Source: Antarcticibacterium flavum (lineage in GTDB: Bacteria; Bacteroidota; Bacteroidia; Flavobacteriales; Flavobacteriaceae). From it: 64,000 nt of DNA. Location: NCBI RefSeq assembly GCF_006159205.1, contig NZ_CP040812.1:3782001-3846000 (forward strand), given 5' to 3'. Below the pieces are notes generated by a model that worked only from the letters and a program-made list of their open reading frames with translations, did not search any database and had not been told where the DNA came from. This document shows positions 2,383-37,693 of the stretch, piece by piece. Position 1 is the first letter of the stretch; the number at the start of each line of letters is the position of its first letter. Position numbers and translations under genes: made by a program.

Positions 2383-3825
2383 CTATTCTGTTTCCTTCCT
2401 TGTGAAGGAGAGTTTTTTTAGGAATTTACCTATAGGTTCGGTAATATTACTAAAGCTTAACAGGCCCTGATCTGTTGTGGCCCGGTAAGTAAAGAGAATG
2501 CCCAGCGGCATCATGATAAGTGTCGAGAGCCAGGCTGCCAGCACAGGACTAATACTTCCATCCTCTGCACTGTTCTTGGCGAATATCCCTATAAAGTGGT
2601 AGGTAAGGAAAATAAGGATAGCAACCACCATTGGAAGTCCCATTCCTCCTTTTCTTATGATAGCCCCAAGGGGTGCTCCTACAAAGAACAATACCACGCA
2701 GGCAAAAGCCAGTACATATTTTTCATGTAAAGCGATCTCGAATTTATTGAGCTGTTTTACACTGTTCCTGAACTCCTGTTTCTTAATATTGACAGTTGCC
2801 ACAAGTGCGTTCATAGATCCAAGACTAAGATTCACGATTTGGAGGCCTGTTTCGGTATCATACAGTTCAAGGACAGAGTTATCTATTTCCCTCACACTGT
2901 CACGGGGTGTAAAATTTGCAGCAATTTGTGAGGCTCCACTCCGGTTGTATATCACATTGGAGAATTTGAATTTTTCCTGCTGGTAAGCAGTGGAGAAGGA
3001 ATCTATACTTTGATTAAGTTCAGATATCTTCAACATGTTCTGCGAATTCCTGTAATTTTCATCTGCCAAATCCACATCGTTGAAGCTGGAAATATCAATA
3101 TTTATCACATATTCCTCAAAATAGCTTTTTGCAAATGGTTTATTGGCCCGTTTGGAAGGGTCATTCTGCGGGATCTCATCGTAGTAATTCCCGTCCCGCA
3201 GGATTAGGGATAAAACATCAGAATCTGTACTTCCCACCAGTTCTCCGCGGTTAGCCTTAATCACTTTTAAATTGCCACCCTGGTTGGATTTTTCGTGAAT
3301 AATTACATCCTCAAGGAACTGATCATTATCACCTGTTTTTTTCTCAACCTTAATATTAAAAGTTCCCACCTCGTTGAATATACCTTCAGAAATGGCCATG
3401 GCAGGCTTTAACTGGGCAATGTTCTTACGCAGGTTAATGGATTTAAATTCTGCAGCGGGAATTACATTGTTGGCAAAAAAGAATGCGGTAAGACTAAGGA
3501 ACAGAATAAAGAAAGTAAGGCTTCTCATGGCTCGCTGAAGGGAGATACCAGAGGATTTCATGGCGGCAAACTCATAATTCTCTGCAAAGCTTCCAAATAC
3601 CATTATAGAAGTAAGAAGTATGGAAAGCGGAAGCACCAGCGGAATCAATTTTGGTGAAAAATAAAGCAGGAACCGTCCAATGATTCCTGCATCAAGATCC
3701 TTTCCTGCAAGTTCACCTATATACAGCCAAATGGTTTGGAGTACAAAGATGAACATGAGGATAATAAAAACAGTAAAGAAAGTCTTTAGGTAACTTACAA
3801 GTATGTATTTATCTAGGATCTTCAA
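2383..3825 (-). CDS. LptF/LptG-family permease of the lipopolysaccharide export ABC transporter
   Basis: This 480-residue inner-membrane protein has the LptF/LptG (YjgP/YjgQ) plan: the start MKILDKYILVSYLKTFF, three N-terminal membrane helices, a long periplasmic beta-jellyroll region (about 115-335) and three more helices at the C-terminus. With LptB it would pull lipopolysaccharide out of the inner membrane. Sequence alone does not tell LptF from LptG, and Bacteroidota usually carry two such genes. It starts 2 bases after the lolA stop and is followed by ribB, so it is almost certainly cotranscribed. The neighbours LolA and FtsK suggest an envelope-biogenesis operon. Confidence 0.9.
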   Translation of the reverse strand: MKILDKYILVSYLKTFFTVFIILMFIFVLQTIWLYIGELAGKDLDAGIIGRFLLYFSPKLIPLVLPLSILLTSIMVFGSFAENYEFAAMKSSGISLQRAMRSLTFFILFLSLTAFFFANNVIPAAEFKSINLRKNIAQLKPAMAISEGIFNEVGTFNIKVEKKTGDNDQFLEDVIIHEKSNQGGNLKVIKANRGELVGSTDSDVLSLILRDGNYYDEIPQNDPSKRANKPFAKSYFEEYVINIDISSFNDVDLADENYRNSQNMLKISELNQSIDSFSTAYQQEKFKFSNVIYNRSGASQIAANFTPRDSVREIDNSVLELYDTETGLQIVNLSLGSMNALVATVNIKKQEFRNSVKQLNKFEIALHEKYVLAFACVVLFFVGAPLGAIIRKGGMGLPMVVAILIFLTYHFIGIFAKNSAEDGSISPVLAAWLSTLIMMPLGILFTYRATTDQGLLSFSNITEPIGKFLKKLSFTRKETE

Positions 3826-29948: not shown

Positions 29949-31295
29949 CTACTTTTTTCTTCGGCGGTTGGCATTTTTATCTCCTCTCGTTTTTGGCTTC
30001 TTATATTTTTTGGCGATCTCTCTACGGTAGGAGCCCCCAAGATTCACCTTTTTGTTTTTCTCGCTTTTTTCATGAAAAGCCGGACCTGGAGCATCTTCGG
30101 CATTTTTATTCGGATTATTGATCTCAAATATCTTGGGTTGCTCTTCCGGGATAAGTTCTGTTGAAATAGCTACCTCTTCAGGAAGCTCGTACTGCGGCAC
30201 CTTCATATTCATAAGGCCCTCGATCCTTTCCAGGTTTTCCTCTTCTTTTTCAGTAGTAAGCAGAAAGGAAACTCCCTGCTTTTCGGCACGGCCTGTTCTT
30301 CCAATCCTGTGCATATAATTCTCAGGATATTCCGGGGTGTCAAAATTTATTACGTGAGAAACATTTTCAATATCAAGCCCACGGGCCATTACATCTGTAG
30401 CAACCAGAATTCGGCAAAAACCATCACCAAACTGCCTTACACTCCGCAGCCTGTAATTTTGGGTTTTATTGGAATGAATCACGGTCAGTTCTTCAGCAAA
30501 CTTCTCATTCAGCATCTCAAAAAGGCGGTCGGCCATTCTTTTATAACCCACAAATATCAAAACTTTGCTGTAGGTTTCCTTATCCTCAAGCAAATGCTTA
30601 AGGAAATTGACCTTGGTATGAAAGTTTGGAATCTTATATCCTTTTTGTTCAATATTCTCAAGGGGAGTACCACTCATGGCCACAGATATTTTCTCCGGTG
30701 CCTTGAAATTAGCATCGATAAGCTCTTCCACGGCTTCTGTCATAGTAGCCGAGAACATGATGCTTTGGCGGTTATCCGGTAATAATTCCAGAATATTATT
30801 GATCTGAAACCGGAATCCCAGGTCCAGCATCACATCCACTTCATCTATCACGAGTTTCTGGATGGATTTAAGCTGAATCGCCCTTCTCAAAACCAGATCA
30901 TATAACCTACCCGGAGTCGCCACCACAATATCCTGCCCCTGCAGCAGATCCTGATGTTGGATGTTGATGTTCACGCCCCCGTAAACAGCAGCGATCCTCA
31001 CATTCATATAAGCGGTAAGCTTTTCGATCTCCTCTGCCACCTGCACTGCAAGTTCCCGGGTTGGAACAAGCACCAATACGCGCGGATTCTTTTGTTCTGA
31101 ATACTTATGCATTCTCAAAATTGGAAGCATATATGCGAAGGTCTTCCCGGTACCCGTTTGCGCAATCCCCACCACGTCCTTACCGGACATAATGGAAGAA
31201 AACGCCTTCTCCTGGATAGGAGTAGGAGTGTGGAATTTTAGATCTTCCAACGCATTGTATAATGGGGTATTTAGATTGAGGTCCTGAAAAGTCAC
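29949..31295 (-). CDS. DEAD/DEAH-box RNA helicase
   Basis: 448 residues with Q motif (FQDLNLNTPLYNAL, then PTPIQ), motif I AQTGTGKT, PTRELAVQ, motif II DEVD (Val in place of the usual Ala), SAT, and C-terminal VATDVMARGLDIENVSHVINFD and HRIGRTGRA. A basic tail (KKYKKPKTRGDKNANRRRKK) would bind RNA. It resembles RhlE/CshA-type helicases that unwind structured RNA in ribosome assembly or decay. The epimerase gene follows after 4 bases, so the two are cotranscribed. Confidence 0.93.
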   Translation of the reverse strand: MTFQDLNLNTPLYNALEDLKFHTPTPIQEKAFSSIMSGKDVVGIAQTGTGKTFAYMLPILRMHKYSEQKNPRVLVLVPTRELAVQVAEEIEKLTAYMNVRIAAVYGGVNINIQHQDLLQGQDIVVATPGRLYDLVLRRAIQLKSIQKLVIDEVDVMLDLGFRFQINNILELLPDNRQSIMFSATMTEAVEELIDANFKAPEKISVAMSGTPLENIEQKGYKIPNFHTKVNFLKHLLEDKETYSKVLIFVGYKRMADRLFEMLNEKFAEELTVIHSNKTQNYRLRSVRQFGDGFCRILVATDVMARGLDIENVSHVINFDTPEYPENYMHRIGRTGRAEKQGVSFLLTTEKEEENLERIEGLMNMKVPQYELPEEVAISTELIPEEQPKIFEINNPNKNAEDAPGPAFHEKSEKNKKVNLGGSYRREIAKKYKKPKTRGDKNANRRRKK

Positions 31296-31514
31296 GGGCT
31301 ATTGTTTGATTAAAGTGCAAAGGTAGGGATTAGTATTGAGTAGTTGGAATTGAGAATTGAGACTGTTCTCAGTTGTCGGTTGTCAATTGTCTGTTGTCGG
31401 TTTGAAAAAAGTGGAGAGTGGAAAGTGGAGAGGTCCTATGTTTGTATAAAAAAGCACAAGTTTCAGAAAAGTAGAGTAATTTAAAGGTGATAACTAACTC
31501 TAAAACTGAAACTT

Positions 31515-32582
31515 ATGCAAAAGCAAGTTACAAAATTAGACTATACGGGCAAAGATATTTTTGTGGGCATTGACACTCATAAAAAGAGCTGGAATATTAC
31601 GACAATGATGGGGCTATTTTCCAAAACCTTTAATGCACCTGCAAGTCCAGAGACTCTCCGGCATTATTTGGACAAGAAATTTCCCGGAGGAAACTATTTT
31701 AGTGCCTATGAAGCTGGATTTGCTGGATTTTGGCCTCATTATCAACTTCTTAAATTAGGGATTAATTCTATTGTGGTCAATGCAGCTGATATCCCTACGA
31801 CCATTAAAGAGAAGGTTCAGAAGACAGATGTAAGGGACAGTAGAAAAATTGCAAAATCCTTGCAGAATAGAGATCTTACTCCCATCTATGTTCCCTCCCA
31901 GGAGTGTTTAGATGACAGAAGTCTCTGCAGGTATAGAAATACTGTTGTAAAGGAATTATCCAGAACAAAAAACAGAATAAGATCGTTTATCAATTTAAAT
32001 GGCCTCAAAGTACCAGAAGATATCCCAGAAGGGAGGTGGCCGAAAAGATTGATAAATTGGTTAAAAGAAATTGACTTGAGTTTGTCTCTACGGCTAACTT
32101 TAAATGGATTGCTGGAGGATTATGAGCGACTAGCTGAGAAAAAAAAATGCATTACAAAACAAATAACTGAACTCTCCAGAACCAGCAGATATGAACAAGA
32201 TGTGAAACTGCTTCGGAGTGTACCAGGAATCGGACTGGTAATAGCTATGGCCTTTTTAACTGAATTAGAGAATATGAATCGGTTTAAAACTTTTGATCAA
32301 CTTTGCAGTTTTATAGGCTTTGTTCCTTCCACAAAATCCTCTGGAGAAAAAGAAAGTGTTGGCGAAATTACCTCACGAGCTCAGGTTATTTTAAGACCAC
32401 TTTTAATAGAGGCTTCCTGGATAGCGGTTCAAAAGGATCCTGCATTAGCTTGCAGATATGCCGAATTATGTCACAAAGGTCTAATGCCAAATAAAGCAAT
32501 CATTAGAATTGCAAAAAAGCTATTAAGAAGAATACGATTTGTTCTAAAGAACAAAGAACTATATAAATTAGAAGTTGTATAA
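31515..32582 (+). CDS. IS110/IS1111-family recombinase (transposase)
   Basis: 355 residues. An N-terminal RuvC-like domain has the DEDD set Asp20 (FVGIDTHKKSW), Glu66 (SAYEAGFAGFW), Asp105 and Asp108 (KTDVRDSRKIA). The C-terminal Tnp domain has RSVPGIGLVIAMAFLTELE, then FDQLCSFIGFVPSTKSSGEK with the candidate catalytic serine. Family enzymes use a serine attack with an RNA guide rather than DDE chemistry. It is only distantly similar to the second recombinase at 33862, so the two elements are independent arrivals. The gene looks intact. Confidence 0.93.
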   Translation: MQKQVTKLDYTGKDIFVGIDTHKKSWNITTMMGLFSKTFNAPASPETLRHYLDKKFPGGNYFSAYEAGFAGFWPHYQLLKLGINSIVVNAADIPTTIKEKVQKTDVRDSRKIAKSLQNRDLTPIYVPSQECLDDRSLCRYRNTVVKELSRTKNRIRSFINLNGLKVPEDIPEGRWPKRLINWLKEIDLSLSLRLTLNGLLEDYERLAEKKKCITKQITELSRTSRYEQDVKLLRSVPGIGLVIAMAFLTELENMNRFKTFDQLCSFIGFVPSTKSSGEKESVGEITSRAQVILRPLLIEASWIAVQKDPALACRYAELCHKGLMPNKAIIRIAKKLLRRIRFVLKNKELYKLEVV

Positions 32583-32960
32583 TCTCTATAAAATTTCAAT
32601 CCAATGAGACCGTTCACTTTCCACTGCAGCGATTTTGCGACTGTTATCGGAGAGACTACGGCTCATTATTCTTTAATGCTGAACAAGACACTGCAGCGAT
32701 AAATCGACTGCTCATAGAAGGCTGTTTTATAGAATTACAACATCCGGGCACCCCAGGTAAGCTATGAAGACCGTGAGTTTTCTTAGCCATACCCGACATT
32801 GAATAATTGTAAACCCCTTAACAAGAAGGGGCTCTACTTTTTTCATCGTCATAAACCCTATTGCTGTTGAGTTGCTCTCCAGCAGAGCTCAATTCCTCTT
32901 CGGATTTATGACTTAAATTTATGAAATTTTTAGCTTCTGGAACTTGGTTTACAACATAGA
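32583..32960 (+). ncRNA. putative seekRNA/bridge-RNA region of the first IS110-type element
   Basis: 378 non-coding bases behind the recombinase. CACTTTCCACT (32615-32625) is the complement of AGTGGAAAGTG at the right junction (32961-32971). TTACAACAT (32735-32743) repeats the element's own right end. CACTGCAGCGAT, 4 bases, CGACTG occurs twice, 67 bases apart (32622 and 32689). Hairpins: CCCCTT/AAGGGG (32814-32831) before a T6 run, and TTGAG-TGCT/AGCA-CTCAA inside an outer GTCATAAA/TTTATGAC stem (32849-32921). This is what a structured guide RNA should look like, but exact RNA ends are not known. Confidence 0.5.
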
Positions 32961-32963
32961 AGT

Positions 32964-33275
32964 GGAAAGTGGAGAGTGGATAGTCTGGACGTGGTCCCCC
33001 GATCCCCAGAGGGGAAGTTCAGGAATTCTAATTTAAATGAAAGGCTTTCGATTATTGTTTTAAATACAACAAAAGGGGTCCTTCCCTTTTTTCAAGGGAA
33101 GGTGGATTGATTGGCGGGAAAGATAATCTATTTAAAAAAAAATCATCTGCCAATCAAGACGTAAGGGTTCAGAGCGGAGTGGGTATTCATGCGGGTGAAT
33201 GAATAGCCGCGGGAACTAGGACCTTTTTATCAAGCTTAGGAGGAAATTGTCTTGTCTCTTAATTCTAATTTTAAC
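32964..33275. other. intergenic repeat-like sequence between the two insertion elements
   Basis: No gene. It begins with a dispersed motif (GGATAGTCTGGACGTGG, 32977-32993) that recurs inside pabB. It also holds a perfect 9-bp hairpin CCTTCCCTT/AAGGGAAGG at 33080-33102. A GGTGGATTGATTGGCGGGAA segment follows that hairpin and looks like part of another repeat family. After 33240 it merges into the ~176-bp array. Confidence 0.5.
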
Positions 33276-33861
33276 TCCAAAGCACCTCTCGATACATTTT
33301 TCCCTCCGCTATCGCTGCGGTAAAAAACACTCGAGGTGACATTATGGGATTCAAAGCATAATCTACCAGGCCACATTATACATTATACATTTTAGATTAT
33401 ACAGTATACATTTTTTGTCTTGTCTCTTGCCTCTTGATTCTTTTTTTTACTCCAAAGCACCTCTCGATACATTTTTTCCCTCCGCTATCGCTGCGGTAAA
33501 AAACACTCGAGGTGACGTTATGGGATTCAAAGCATAATCTACCAGGCCACATTATACATTTTACATTATACAGTATACATTTTTTGTCTTGTCTCTTGAT
33601 TCCACTTTTAACTCCAAAGCACCTCTCGATACATTTTTTCCCTCCGCTATCGCTGCGGTAAAAAACACTCGAGGTGACGTTATGGGATTCAAAGCATAAT
33701 CTACCAGGCCACATTATACATTTTACATTATACAGTATACATTTTTTGTCTTGTCTCTTGATTCTTGCCTCTTGATTCCACTTTTAACTCCAAAGCACCT
33801 CTCGATACATTTTTTCCCTCTGCTATCGCTGCGGTAAAAAACACTACCATTGACGTATTTT

Positions 33862-35178
33862 TTAACTAGCTGTATTATAGCTAATTACCATCCCAAGCTC
33901 TTTCGCCATTTTTCTTACACTTCTTTCTTTGTTGAGGTTAATTTTCTCTTCATAATCTTTTATTCCTTTTTCTATATAATCTAAACCTCTAACAAATAAC
34001 TTCCAGTAAAGTTCTGCCAGTTTTCTGGCCATTGCTTTTATAGCGTGGCTCGGTCCCTTTCTGGCTCTTAGTTTTCTGCCGAAGGCACCTAGTGCAATTT
34101 TTTTGCTGTTGAGAAGGCTTGTGGCCACTTGTTTGAAGATTAATCCTGCTTTGGGCTGACCTTTTGATTTATGGTTTTTCCTCATTTTGCCGGAGTGGTG
34201 CTGTTTTGGAGCAAGGCCAAGCCAGGAAGTAAAATGTTTTTCTGTTGCCCATTTCTTCATATCTGAACCTACCTCGGCAAGGAGTTGCATCCAGGTATAA
34301 TCTGTTATTCCAGGCAGAACAGTGGCATCCCTATAGTTAAATACACTTAGTAGATAGCGGTCGAGGTTTTTAATCTTGGGTTTGTGATGCCTTATAGGCT
34401 TCCTTGTTTTTTTCTTGCCGGGTTTTAGGGATGCATCACCATTCTCTCCGCTCATCTTCTTAAGAACTTCATCCAATTTTTCATCACACCGCACTATTTG
34501 TACCTGATAAAAATCATAGCAAGCAACTGCCTGCTCCAGTGCGAATAAACCTGCCTGAGTGTAGTGCCCTTTTAGAGATTTTATTACCAGTTCCCTTTTT
34601 GTTTTTAAAATGCTTTTTTCGCATAACTCCACCAGGACTTTCGGGTTTCTTTCTCCTTTGAGAATAGCTCTGATTACCCTCAATCCACTGGCTCCATGTA
34701 CTTGACTTAAAACTTCTTTTAAGCGGATGTTCATCATGGTGAGGGCTTTTTGCATATGATTTATATGCATTGCCGCACTGCGAATGTGATCTTCCCGAAG
34801 GCGTTGATATTCCCGAAGTTCCTGGACAAGATCTTCTGCTACAAAACATCTGCTAAGAAGACCATGGCTATGTAACTGTTGTATCCACTGGCAATCCTTT
34901 ACATCTGTTTTTCTGCCGGGAACTTGTTTAGTACTTCTCCCATCTACCAACCAGACATCGATTCCTCTGGCCTGTAGAATATCAAAGAGAATAACCCAAT
35001 AAACTCCAGTGGCTTCCAAAGCAACAGTTTCGATATTATTATCGATCAAATAATCCGCTGCCATTTCCAAATCCTCAGTAAAAGTCTCGAAGCTTTTTAC
35101 TTCTCTCCCTTCAAGACCTACAAAAATTTTGCGGGCTCCAATATCAATGCCCGCAGCATGGTTGTGAATTTTCTTCAT
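33862..35178 (-). CDS. IS110-family recombinase (transposase)
   Basis: 438 residues, intact. DEDD residues: Asp12 (AAGIDIGARK), Glu55 (VALEATGVYW), Asp92 and Asp95 (RKTDVKDCQWIQQLHSHGLL). A long helical middle is followed by a basic loop (GKKKTRKPIRHHKPK). The C-terminal Tnp domain has LPGITDYTWMQLLAEVG, FTSWLGLAPKQHHSGKMRK with the candidate serine, and KGPSHAIKAMARKLAELYW. It is longer than the first recombinase at 31515 and differs from it throughout. The start at 35178 (MKKIHNHAAG) is the natural one. Confidence 0.94.
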   Translation of the reverse strand: MKKIHNHAAGIDIGARKIFVGLEGREVKSFETFTEDLEMAADYLIDNNIETVALEATGVYWVILFDILQARGIDVWLVDGRSTKQVPGRKTDVKDCQWIQQLHSHGLLSRCFVAEDLVQELREYQRLREDHIRSAAMHINHMQKALTMMNIRLKEVLSQVHGASGLRVIRAILKGERNPKVLVELCEKSILKTKRELVIKSLKGHYTQAGLFALEQAVACYDFYQVQIVRCDEKLDEVLKKMSGENGDASLKPGKKKTRKPIRHHKPKIKNLDRYLLSVFNYRDATVLPGITDYTWMQLLAEVGSDMKKWATEKHFTSWLGLAPKQHHSGKMRKNHKSKGQPKAGLIFKQVATSLLNSKKIALGAFGRKLRARKGPSHAIKAMARKLAELYWKLFVRGLDYIEKGIKDYEEKINLNKERSVRKMAKELGMVISYNTAS

Positions 35179-35415
35179 AATAGAAAAAGTTTAAAAACCA
35201 CATCGGAGAATTCTAAAGCAGTAAGACTACCATGCGGGCATCAATACGAAGTTGAGCACCAAAATCGCTACCATTATTTTCCGAAAACCATACTCGAACA
35301 CAGGTATAAAACACTATGTGTATATCGGCCAAATTGTGGTTTAAATTCCCTTATAAAAATACAATCCCCTACGTCAATATTCTTCGCTAGATAAAATTTT
35401 TTTTATCTCAAATCT
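35179..35415 (-). ncRNA. putative bridge RNA leader of the second IS110-type element
   Basis: 237 non-coding bases upstream of the recombinase, on its strand. Near the end GATAAAA/TTTTATC can form a hairpin (35391-35408 on the + strand). A loop held by CATA/TATG contains AGTGTTTTATACC, which matches the target half AGTGTTTTTTACC at 12 of 13 positions. The same loop holds TTCGAG against the target CTCGAG. Further down, AATGGTAG repeats the element's right end and CTCAA complements its left end (TTGAG). The order target-like loop then donor-like loop agrees with published bridge RNAs. Transcript ends are inferred. Confidence 0.5.
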
Positions 35416-35700
35416 CGAGGTGACGTTATGGGATTCAAAGCATAATCTACCAGGCCACATTATACATTTTACATTATACAGTATACATTTTTTGTCTTGT
35501 CTCTTGCCTCTTAATTCCTTTTTTACTCCAAAGCACCTCTCGATACATTTTTTCCCTCCGCTCTCGCTTCAGAAAAAAACACTCGAGGTGACGTTATGAC
35601 GTTATGGGATTCAAAGCATAATCCACCAGGCCACATTTTACATTATACAGTATATATTTTTTGTCTTGTCTCTTGGTTCTTGTCTCTTGCTTCTTGCCCC

Positions 35701-35730
35701 TTGTTTCCTGTCAAAAAATAGGTAAATTTG
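35701..35730 (+). promoter_or_regulatory. Bacteroidota-type promoter of the FMN reductase-pabB operon
   Basis: TTG (35701-35703), 19 bases, TAAATTTG (35723-35730): full match to the -33/-7 consensus. Transcription would begin near 35737, 10 bases before the ATG. It lies right at the end of the repeat array. Confidence 0.55.
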
Positions 35731-35746
35731 AACGAAACCTTGAACT

Positions 35747-36283
35747 ATGAAGAAAATCCTCGCCTTTGCAGGCTCCAACAGCAGTACATCTATAAATCAT
35801 CAATTGATCACTCACGTAACCGGCAGGATCACTAGTCACGAGGTCAAGGTGCTTCAGCTTCGGAATTTTGAGATTCCAATGTATAGTATTGACCTGGAAA
35901 AGGAAAGGGGAATACCAACCGATATTAAGGTGCTGAAGAACCTGATCGATGAGCATGACGCTCTTATTATCTCAGTAAATGAACACAACGGTACTGTATC
36001 GGCCTTCTTTAAAAATATTATCGATTGGTTATCCCGTCTTGATCGCAGTTTTCTAACGGGAAAAAGAATTTTGCTTATGAGTACTTCCCCGGGAGCTCGC
36101 GGAGCGGCAGCTGCTTTGGAATATTCCAAACATATGTTTCCGCGTTTTGGGGGGAAGGTAATTGAAAGTTTCAGTTTTCCGCAGTTTAAGGATAATCTGC
36201 ACGAAAATAAGATCCAGAATGAAGTACTGGATATGGGAATTGAAGATGTCTTAACTACCTTTGCACACGAAATTGAAAACTAA
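35747..36283 (+). CDS. NADPH-dependent FMN reductase family protein
   Basis: 178 residues of flavodoxin-like fold: ILAFAGSNSSTSINHQL binds the FMN phosphate, IISVNEHNGTVSAFFKNIIDWLSR is the second FMN loop (usually PEYNGS..), and STSPGARGAA the third. Such enzymes reduce quinones, azo compounds or metals with NAD(P)H in the cytosol. In this protein the common PEYN reads NEHN. The stop codon touches the GTG start of pabB, so the pair is translationally coupled. Confidence 0.88.
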   Translation: MKKILAFAGSNSSTSINHQLITHVTGRITSHEVKVLQLRNFEIPMYSIDLEKERGIPTDIKVLKNLIDEHDALIISVNEHNGTVSAFFKNIIDWLSRLDRSFLTGKRILLMSTSPGARGAAAALEYSKHMFPRFGGKVIESFSFPQFKDNLHENKIQNEVLDMGIEDVLTTFAHEIEN

Positions 36284-37693
36284 GTGCGCACTACCCGGGA
36301 ATATACTTTAGAAAATCCGAAAAAGTTTAAACAGCAATTGCTAAGCTGGAGCTCCCAGTTCACTGAGGTAGCGTGGCTGGATAGCAATGATTATCCGCGG
36401 CAGGAGGCTGCCTTTGATGCTATCCTGGCAGCACAGGCCTTTACCGTACTTAGAACCGATCATTACAATGCCTTCGAAAACCTTAAGGAATACCAGGAAA
36501 CCACTGCCGACTGGATCTTCGGTTATCTTTCCTATGATCTTAAAAATGACGTGGAAGACTTAAGTTCCTCAAATTTTGATGGCCTGGAATTCCCCGATCT
36601 TTATTTTTTCCAACCCACAAAGCTTATTCAGATCATTGGTCAAAAAGCTGTTTTTCATTACCTGAAGATGGTGGATGATGAGATGGAAAGTGATTTTGAG
36701 GAAATCGGATTGGTGGAGAGTGGAGAGAGGAGAGAGGATAGTCTGGACGTGGGAAAAGTGGAGAGCGGAGAGTGGAGAGAGGATAGTAGGGACGTGGGAA
36801 AAGTGGAGAGAGGAGAGTGGAAAGAGAAAATTTCTCACTCGGGCAAAAAAGCTAAAGCTTTTCCGGGGAATGGGATTACTTCACGTATTTCGAAGGAGCA
36901 GTATCTGGAGAAAGTAGGCCGGATGTTATCTCATATCCACAGGGGTGATATATATGAAGCGAATTTTTGCCAGGAATTCTTTGCTGAGAACAGGGTAATT
37001 GAGCCGCTGCAGGTGTTCCAAAAACTGAATGATATTTCTGTTTCGCCTTTTGCTGTATATCTTAAATTGGGTGAACATCATCTTCTTTCTGCCTCCCCCG
37101 AAAGATATATTAAGAAGAAAGATCAAAAAATTTATTCCCAGCCTATTAAAGGAACTGCTCCCAGGTCTGCAAACGCAGAGGAAGATGAGCAAATTGCCGC
37201 AAACCTGGTGAATGATCCCAAGGAACGATCAGAGAACATTATGATCGTGGATCTTGTGCGTAATGACCTTTCCAGGATAGCCCGCCGGGGGACTGTAAGG
37301 GTAGAGGAGCTTTGTAAAGTGTACTCCTTTAAGCAGGTACATCAAATGATCTCCACCATCTCTGCAGAAGTGGATGAAGCTATCCCTGCTGTGGAGATCC
37401 TAAGAGCAACATTTCCAATGGGAAGTATGACCGGGGCTCCAAAAATATCGGCTATGAAGATCATTGAGGAGCTGGAAGAAACCAAACGCGGACTCTACAG
37501 CGGCGCCGTGGGATATTTCAATCCGCAGGGAGATTTTGACTTCAATGTTGTAATACGCAGTATCCTGTATAATTCTGCTAAGAAATACGTGTCTTTTTCT
37601 GTTGGAGGAGCGATCACCTCGAAATCCATTCCTGAAAAAGAGTATGAGGAGTGTCTATTAAAAGCCCGCGCTATGCGACAGGTATTGAGTTAG
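36284..37693 (+). CDS. pabB: aminodeoxychorismate synthase component I (PabB-like)
   Basis: 469 residues starting with GTG directly behind the previous stop (TAAGTG). The chorismate-binding domain holds YSQPIKGTAPRS, and Lys in PIKGT rather than Ala marks PabB against anthranilate synthase TrpE. Other signs are ERSENIMIVDLVRNDLSR, FPMGSMTGAPKISAM and GLYSGAVGYF. With a PabA amidotransferase it turns chorismate into 4-amino-4-deoxychorismate for folate. Between the N-terminal and catalytic domains an insert of about 40 residues (VESGERREDSLDVGK three times over) is encoded by a dispersed DNA repeat. It stays in frame, so the enzyme may still work. Confidence 0.87.
   Translation: MRTTREYTLENPKKFKQQLLSWSSQFTEVAWLDSNDYPRQEAAFDAILAAQAFTVLRTDHYNAFENLKEYQETTADWIFGYLSYDLKNDVEDLSSSNFDGLEFPDLYFFQPTKLIQIIGQKAVFHYLKMVDDEMESDFEEIGLVESGERREDSLDVGKVESGEWREDSRDVGKVERGEWKEKISHSGKKAKAFPGNGITSRISKEQYLEKVGRMLSHIHRGDIYEANFCQEFFAENRVIEPLQVFQKLNDISVSPFAVYLKLGEHHLLSASPERYIKKKDQKIYSQPIKGTAPRSANAEEDEQIAANLVNDPKERSENIMIVDLVRNDLSRIARRGTVRVEELCKVYSFKQVHQMISTISAEVDEAIPAVEILRATFPMGSMTGAPKISAMKIIEELEETKRGLYSGAVGYFNPQGDFDFNVVIRSILYNSAKKYVSFSVGGAITSKSIPEKEYEECLLKARAMRQVLS
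36711..36835. repeat. in-frame dispersed GA-rich repeat inside pabB
   Basis: Three consecutive units of GTGGAGAGTGGAGAGAGGAT type, each ending in TAG(T/G)(C/G)TGGACGTGGG-like sequence. GGATAGTCTGGACGTGG at 36736-36752 is identical to intergenic 32977-32993, and GTGGAGAGTGGAAAG-type sequence also flanks the first IS110 element. The repeat adds whole codons. Confidence 0.75.

Follow-up and report, generated by a model that had tools for sequence, protein, structure and literature searches.

A putative bridge-RNA-guided IS110-family element in CGTC-tagged palindromic repeats of Antarcticibacterium flavum, and miniature elements with its ends in sister species

The window analyzed here is a stretch of 64,000 nucleotides of Antarcticibacterium flavum (NZ_CP040812.1, positions 3,782,001 to 3,846,000), and all coordinates below count from its first letter. 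It holds a complete element of the IS110 family of insertion sequences on the minus strand at 33846-35413 (1568 bp without its core), delimited by comparing its junctions with intact neighboring repeat units. An earlier note on this DNA had proposed that the element interrupts one unit of a tandem repeat and that its empty site can be read from intact units; coordinates and junctions both bear this out. The interrupted unit belongs to a 162-176-nt tandem repeat, the element is joined on the plus strand as GGTAAAAAACACT^ACCATTGACG at its left and as CTCAAAT^CTCGAGGTGACG at its right, and neighboring intact units (repeat families D2 and D3) read AAAAAACACTCGAGGTGACG, which gives the empty site AAAAAACACT^CGAGGTGACG. 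As the note had also stated, the dinucleotide CT (AG in the sense of the recombinase) is the sole sequence common to both junctions, at 33844-33845 beside the right end (RE) and at 35414-35415 beside the left end (LE), and target duplication is absent. The right-hand part of the interrupted CGTC-tagged palindrome occupies 33781-33845 and the left target CGTCACCTCGAG, with its CGTC tag, 35414-35425 (both minus strand).

The gene at 33862-35178 (minus strand) encodes a recombinase of 438 aa with the domains DEDD_Tnp_IS110 (PF01548, E 1.6e-16) and Transposase_20 (PF02371, E 1.3e-11), preceded by a 235-nt leader at 35179-35413 (237 nt with the core, the length given in the earlier note) and followed by 16 nt downstream of the stop codon. 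An alignment of 34 recombinases shows no variation at D12, E55, D92, and D95, presumably the catalytic DEDD residues, in keeping with the complete recombinase and DEDD set claimed for this element. P324 and G330 are likewise invariant and S329 nearly so. The C-terminal GLAPKQHHSG fits the IS110 motif G--P----SG (PMC11187229).

Five near-identical full copies (the window copy L001 and L002-L005) occur in the genome, a single contig of 4.35 Mb, with the same ends, the same CT/AG core, and a homologous target. All five lie in a single orientation at a single point of CGTC-tagged palindromes. A short core, lack of target duplication, and fixed orientation in the target, all expected of IS110 elements, are found in each. 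Unrelated junctions in other copies had been named as evidence that would count against a specific target; the junctions of the other copies match. L001 equals L002 and L003 equals L004 and L005; 4 of the 1568 positions distinguish the two types. Read in the recombinase's sense, the left targets are GTCACCTCGAG (window copy), GTCACTTCGAG, GTCACTTCGAG, GTCAGTTCGAG, and GTCAGATCGAG, with TG next in all. A sixth copy (L006), 75% identical, occupies another CGTC-tagged site, CGTCATCCTGAG...AACGCGTTTCA, whose arms are imperfect. An orthologous empty site was sought once in genus relatives, where the flanking genes are only ~67-73% identical, and none of the nine relatives' loci examined had the tag motif. 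The target proposed by the earlier note, a palindromic repeat, is a CGTC-tagged palindrome, and IS110 members entering repetitive extragenic palindromes (REPs) are documented (PMC1525189). CGTC REPs consist of a CGTC tag and, behind it, a palindrome whose stem has 8-9 bp and whose loop has 4-5 nt (PMC3733652); the target units in the window carry the tag and inverted arms, with a hairpin longer than in the defined CGTC REP families.

Relatives were taken from a scan of named genomes, in which the best 80 of 128 loci were kept and the leaders and ends of 47 were read. Setting aside L064 (ambiguous junction) and L070, L071, L074, and L090-L094 (same or near-same leader) left 38, to which the window element and L006 were added to make a curated set of 40. 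Nearly all come from Bacteroidota, with L088 in a metagenome-assembled genome titled Desulfitobacteriaceae; judging from genera and families, we take the host groups to be Flavobacteriia, Cytophagia, Sphingobacteriia, and Bacteroidia. The structure alignment comprised 37 of the 40 (L044, L051, and L066 omitted), the donor/RNA covariation scan the 36 left after removal of near-identical leaders, the left- and right-target scans 33 and 31 usable elements, the right-target register test 30 of 34 pairs, extra copies excluded, the flank-arm test 32 elements, and the guide-target match count 37. Close relatives are rare: besides the own genome, 3 of 396 genomes in a class draw and 0 of 393 in an order draw had one at E 1e-140, and a family draw gave 5 of 397 at E 1e-60, three of them just 34-37% identical. 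Four distant relatives on viral contigs were left out of the analyses. Two further observations concern the wider group. At 8 of 10 loci examined (L090, about 3753-3762, and L086, L088, L089, L091, L095, L096, and L098), the recombinase gene breaks near one shared point (~aa 241-272), past a run of 7-9 A that shifts what follows into a different frame, a candidate case of programmed frameshifting or slippage in IS110 recombinases; in L099 and L108 the break is at other places. Sphingobacterium sp. CZ-2 carries two full copies (L134 and L136) in tandem, ~330 bp apart.

The leader appears to encode a guide RNA of the bridge type, as its conservation and covariation suggest. Alignment of 37 sequences yielded a sense-strand structure with two internal loops, in which 93.5% of cells are paired and whose predicted core in the window element spans 35198-35341 (minus strand). 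Its covariation score was 0.531, against 0.238 +/- 0.011 in shuffled and at most 0.184 in slid controls; relatedness by itself can lift a score above shuffled values, and more weight belongs to the slid controls. The antisense strand was rejected as the source of the RNA, its consensus fold being weaker (-39.6 versus -51.0 kcal/mol for the sense strand, 30 sequences). In the target loop, the 5' and 3' sides vary, with a conserved hairpin UAGUG..CCUG (35301-35316, minus strand) between them, and the layout of the donor loop is similar. An Rfam scan of 31000-36500 returned three matches, all below the gathering score.

An indication of guiding comes from the 3' side of the target loop, which in the window element holds the putative left target guide GUUCGAG (35293-35299, minus strand) including the core AG. 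In scans of loops against targets, this side matched the left target and core in the same sense with z scores of 9.8, 9.5, 8.9, and 8.3, the best four of 120 windows and all on one diagonal; in the seven remaining loop-side/target scans, no window among the best four had z above 3.4 (33 and 31 independent elements for left and right targets). Guide and left target with core agree at 7 of 7 positions in 22 of 37 elements, at 6 in 11, and at 5 in 4, with a mean of 6.49 for an element's own target versus 4.61 in mismatched pairs. Nature also appears to have retargeted these elements: 10 disjoint sister pairs show 17 target differences, and both guides follow in 10. The earlier note had called the window element, with its known ancestral target, complete recombinase, and leader, a clean case for bridge-RNA work; of the five copies, though, it is the least clean, its target CCTCGAG agreeing with the guide GTTCGAG in 5 of 7 bases, versus 7 of 7 in L004 (GTTCGAG).

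Similar correspondences link the donor loop to the ends of the element. The 3' side of this loop, with the putative left donor guide AUGGUAG (35227-35233, minus strand), covaries with the right end (z 7.4, 5.3, and 5.2), where the left-donor segment ATGGT (33846-33850, minus strand) tracks RNA columns 227, 228, and 230. Its 5' side UAGCGA (35265-35270, minus strand) is in the same sense as the LE segment TAGCGA (35384-35389, minus strand) beside the inverted repeat, and across 40 elements the mean longest match between the two is 7.08 versus 4.99 in other pairs (0 of 5000 permutations). A structured non-coding RNA that matches target and donor, as in IS110 elements, is in this way indicated by covariation. 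The sub-terminal inverted repeat of 9 bp, within the range of 7-17 bp used for IS1111, consists of the RE copy TACGTCAAT in sense (33849-33857) and the LE copy ATTGACGTA in sense (35370-35378), and the two copies covary. Just inside the left end lies a hairpin, AGATAAAA-AAAA-TTTTATCT (35389-35408, minus strand), so placed that some 6 nt and the hairpin separate the LE segment from the core and 30-38 nt separate the core from the inverted repeat. Compared with shuffles, the hairpin has a mean z of -0.72 and falls below -1 in 16 of 39, being more stable in part of the set. A CTCAA stretch tried as a right-donor guide was rejected, as it is a hairpin stem in the RNA structure. Where the right junction has AA, the left has AG (L006, L043, L044, L052, L078, L093, L094, and L098, and L060 by a boundary that we set ourselves), and with AC (L062) or AT (L063) on the right the left is also AG, as if the left junction took its second core base from the donor. 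The IS110-type recombination proposed in the earlier note fits all of this: the PF01548 and PF02371 domains, a dinucleotide core without duplication, a long upstream leader, and a conserved RNA with target- and donor-matching loops.

A full-length query returned isolated end matches in genus relatives, and those inspected were ends of gene-less elements or solitary ends. Two sister genomes, G002 and G006, hold dozens of elements of ~150-420 bp with the ends of the window element and with neither recombinase nor guide loop, falling by cargo into size classes of ~160, 285, and 314-422 bp (a 452-bp compound of two elements was left uncounted). The host's GTDB genus includes Gillisia hiemivivida, whose NZ_VORY01000007.1 shares element ends and flanks with G006. 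A 397-bp query matched 11 of 16 genus genomes including the own, at 52 places in G006, 48 in G002, and one in the own genome, the right end of the sixth copy; a 162-bp query matched 6 of 16, at 48 places in G006, 40 in G002, and none in the own genome, many matches of both queries being partial. Under a strict pattern, 26 of the 44 loci of the 160-bp class gave 29 complete units of 148-162 bp, of which 25 enclose a strict head-to-head pair of CGTC palindromes and the other 4 are, by reading, off by 1-2 bases. With the ends of an autonomous element, no transposase, and many dispersed copies, they have the properties of miniature inverted-repeat transposable elements (MITEs). Reading them suggests that a donor minimally needs ~44 nt at the left end and some 13-27 nt at the right. 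Two mini-element loci had no match in Rfam. The 314-422-bp class (L031, 1495-1891, and kin) has strong interior inverted repeats, without an Rfam match in L031.

An alternative is that these are decayed copies, scattered by ordinary repeat recombination instead of being mobilized in trans, and the nested or tandem arrangement of some would fit it. At L229, mini-elements stand head to tail, each inserted at the right end of its predecessor (ACGTCAAATGGTAG), and an element's own end can therefore serve as a target; at L231, a 257-bp unit of a palindrome pair and a 160-bp mini-element is tandemly repeated three times. That 18 of the 44 loci were not parsed as complete units, and that G002 has no close autonomous copy despite its wealth of mini-elements, would also suit decay. 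Against it stand the constant ends, the constant size classes, and the dispersed flanks, as well as 12 units in G002, near-identical by eye, which lie at different places with AG cores, at GTTCGAG (8), TTTCGAG (3), and GGTCGAG (1), others being at CCTGAG-type sites. We consider decay and scattering improbable and favor mobilization in trans. G006 has one close autonomous copy, with guide GCCUGAG.

The RE copy of the inverted repeat holds a GTCA tag 5 nt from the core, and the same motif recurs in targets. All 35 curated right ends (35 of 35) have GTCA at positions -9 to -6 from the core, as do 35 of 37 left targets (exceptions L043 and L056), and among the parsed mini-elements GTC occupies -9 to -7 in 25 of 29, the fourth base not being A in five of those. 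For the first tag base (C or T), no correspondence between right end and target was seen by eye. The genome has 42 sites of the form GTCANNTCGAG, at which all five copies sit, versus 17 of a reversed control pattern; TCGAG has 66 sites in the window alone with the element masked, which extrapolates to ~4,600 genome-wide. Purging of insertions from genes inflates this contrast, which leaves a role of the tag in site choice probable; tag and guide probably select the site together. A distant relative in Desulfobacterales (L107, 40% identity), inserted in CGTCATTGCGAG, has similar leader motifs, with TTGCGAG in the loop, but no GTCA at its right end; the common tag is not universal in the branch. 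One might suppose that the recombinase itself recognizes the palindrome, for instance via tag and hairpin, and that the leader RNA is regulatory. The tag common to donor and target would fit such a scheme, as would the complementary arms re-formed by the flanks (mean 4.28 versus 3.63 +/- 0.15 shuffled, 0 of 1000; at least 5 nt in 15 of 32). The leader loop, however, follows single-base changes of the target between close relatives, including L056 (TTTGGCAG), L049 (CCTCAG), and L078 (CTCAGAG), which makes recognition by protein without RNA quite unlikely, more so than decay of the mini-elements.

The right target seems to be read weakly, if at all. A strong right-target guide was rejected after its scan gave no z above 3.2 among the best four windows per scan. 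At the expected register, the best of 8, pairing reached 2.63 versus 2.06 pairs (z 2.97, 20 of 4000 permutations, 30 pairs; 9 of 4000 with half-weight wobble), and in the window element a possible guide ACAC on the 5' side of the target loop (35318-35321, minus strand) can pair with GTGT of the right target. The segment AGTGTTTTATACC (35303-35315) resembles the right target AGTGTTTTTTACC more closely, at 12 of 13 positions in the window copy and 13 of 13 in L003-L005, which could be taken for improved versions of a guide; it was rejected and has very little to recommend it, because it lies in the hairpin UAGUG(U/C)...(A/G)CCUG kept in elements with unrelated right targets (L057 and L062, for example), its variable base falling in the hairpin loop.

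Several observations weigh against a guide RNA acting as described. The single-column scan that linked donor loop and right end also gave scattered z scores of 4-5 at meaningless column pairs, and relatedness thus inflates the z values. Two-sided changes occur in 21 of 31 pairs of the RNA versus 17.5 +/- 1.5 in shuffles, 5 of 500 of which reach 21. Both donor guides would pair with one strand, unlike in IS621. Pairing with the right target is only suggestive, and in six Draconibacterium copies whose leaders are nearly identical, the right targets (AGGAGTG, AGCATAG, AGCGTAG, AGCGTAG, AAGGAGG, and AAGGAGG) have little in common past the first base of the core. The guide match of the window copy and the lack of a close autonomous copy in G002 belong here too. 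Ends were curated by eye with the GTCA motif in view, in L060 in particular, and the tag argument suffers from confounding, since palindromes lie between genes and selection removes insertions that hit genes. A sequence search of the PDB returned no credible solved recombinase. Transcript, ribonucleoprotein, circle, and transposition we infer from sequence.

Taken as a whole, the data are best explained by an IS110-family element that moves by RNA-guided recombination, chooses its sites by guide and tag, and acts in trans on mini-elements, a reading in which we have considerable confidence. Its foundations, read from the genomes themselves, are the ends, the core, the target specificity, the RNA structure, the left-target and donor matches, and the gene-less derivatives. 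In the proposed mechanism, the leader would be transcribed into a bridge RNA held by the recombinase, with recombination passing through a circle. The 3' side of the target loop would read the left target and core, with possible weak pairing between the 5' side and the right target; in the donor loop, the right end of the element would pair with the 3' side, and the left-end segment behind the hairpin matches the 5' side. The GTC(A) tag, at a fixed distance from the core and common to right end and target, would make site choice a matter of guide plus tag, and the element would therefore be confined to CGTC-tagged sites. Recombinase and RNA may also act in trans on mini-elements with the same ends and without gene or guide loop, because such elements occupy the same kind of site in sister species. 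More tentatively, we propose that bridge-RNA recombinases of this clade could be the missing mobilizers of CGTC palindromic repeats in Bacteroidota, the tag being a recognition site common to element end and repeat, the repeat both landing site and head-to-head cargo, and the guide RNA of one element directing gene-less, guide-less passenger families; we put the case for this broader scheme at slightly short of even.

Two other features of the locus deserve mention. A second IS110-family recombinase (31515-32582, plus strand, 355 aa, PF01548 and PF02371), ~1.3 kb from the element, adjoins the same repeat array and is followed by a long non-coding stretch. Within the gene at 36284-37693, a short stretch at ~36713-36833 has matches at many further sites of the own genome and in some genus relatives.

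Like IS621 (PMC11208160), the element has an upstream leader, a two-loop RNA, a dinucleotide core, no duplication, and a REP-like target; it departs from IS621 in its recombinase of 438 aa (315-330 aa printed for that branch, PMC11187229), its 9-bp sub-terminal inverted repeat (2-3 bp there), and its weak right-target guide. In IS621, the bottom strand is paired by the 5' loop sides and the top strand by the 3' sides (PMC11208160); ISEc21 follows this order, and the tested IS1111 members reverse it (PMC11187229). The left target guide of our clade is the 3' side of its loop, against the bottom-strand-5' order of IS621 and ISEc21, and because of this an IS1111-like position of the bottom-strand guide occurs here in an IS110-like leader. 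The long leader upstream of the gene is shared with ISEc21 and the IS110 group, the guide order being opposite to that of ISEc21 (PMC11187229). The bottom-strand guide in 3' position and the length of the inverted repeat recall the IS1111-group seekRNAs, in which leaders are mostly downstream of a gene of 330-350 aa, unlike the upstream leader and longer gene here (PMC11187229); for the IS1111 order of a top-strand guide 5' of the bottom-strand guide, the bottom-strand part is 3' here and the top-strand signal is weak. A diverse example in PMC11208160 or PMC11187229 may share the guide order of the clade.

REP-specific IS110 members include ISPpu9, ISPpu10, ISPa11, and ISRm19, and IS621 also enters REPs (PMC1525189); the four former occur in Pseudomonas and Sinorhizobium, and the portion of that source cited here mentions neither guide, tag sharing, nor miniature forms. 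GTAG REPs are mobilized by REP-associated tyrosine transposases, and the 2013 survey found CGTC repeats without a dedicated transposase (PMC3733652). The repeats that serve here as target and cargo resemble these CGTC REPs in tag and head-to-head dimers and differ in being enclosed by IS110 ends. The mini-elements are like bacterial MITEs (PMC10969869) in being non-autonomous, with parental ends and no transposase, and unlike them in their short, sub-terminal inverted repeats and lack of target duplication. The word IS110 has no occurrence in that review, PMC11578231 assigns its MITE to IS1182, and among the matches listed in the open-licence literature, judged by title and the start of the abstract, there were no IS110 miniature elements and no such guide order. 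The present elements provide natural guide-target pairs for the long-recombinase IS110 branch from several classes of Bacteroidota, in which the guide order is the reverse of that in the published models for IS621 and ISEc21 and the tag is probably a second recognition element, a fixed one. The mini-elements suggest minimal donor needs and action of a bridge RNA in trans, which would be useful for tool design, and suggest, in testable form, what mobilizes CGTC repeats, a question that the 2013 survey had left open. Set beside the known systems, the element is a new member of its family, and what is new about it is the guide layout of the clade, the common tag, and the passenger elements.
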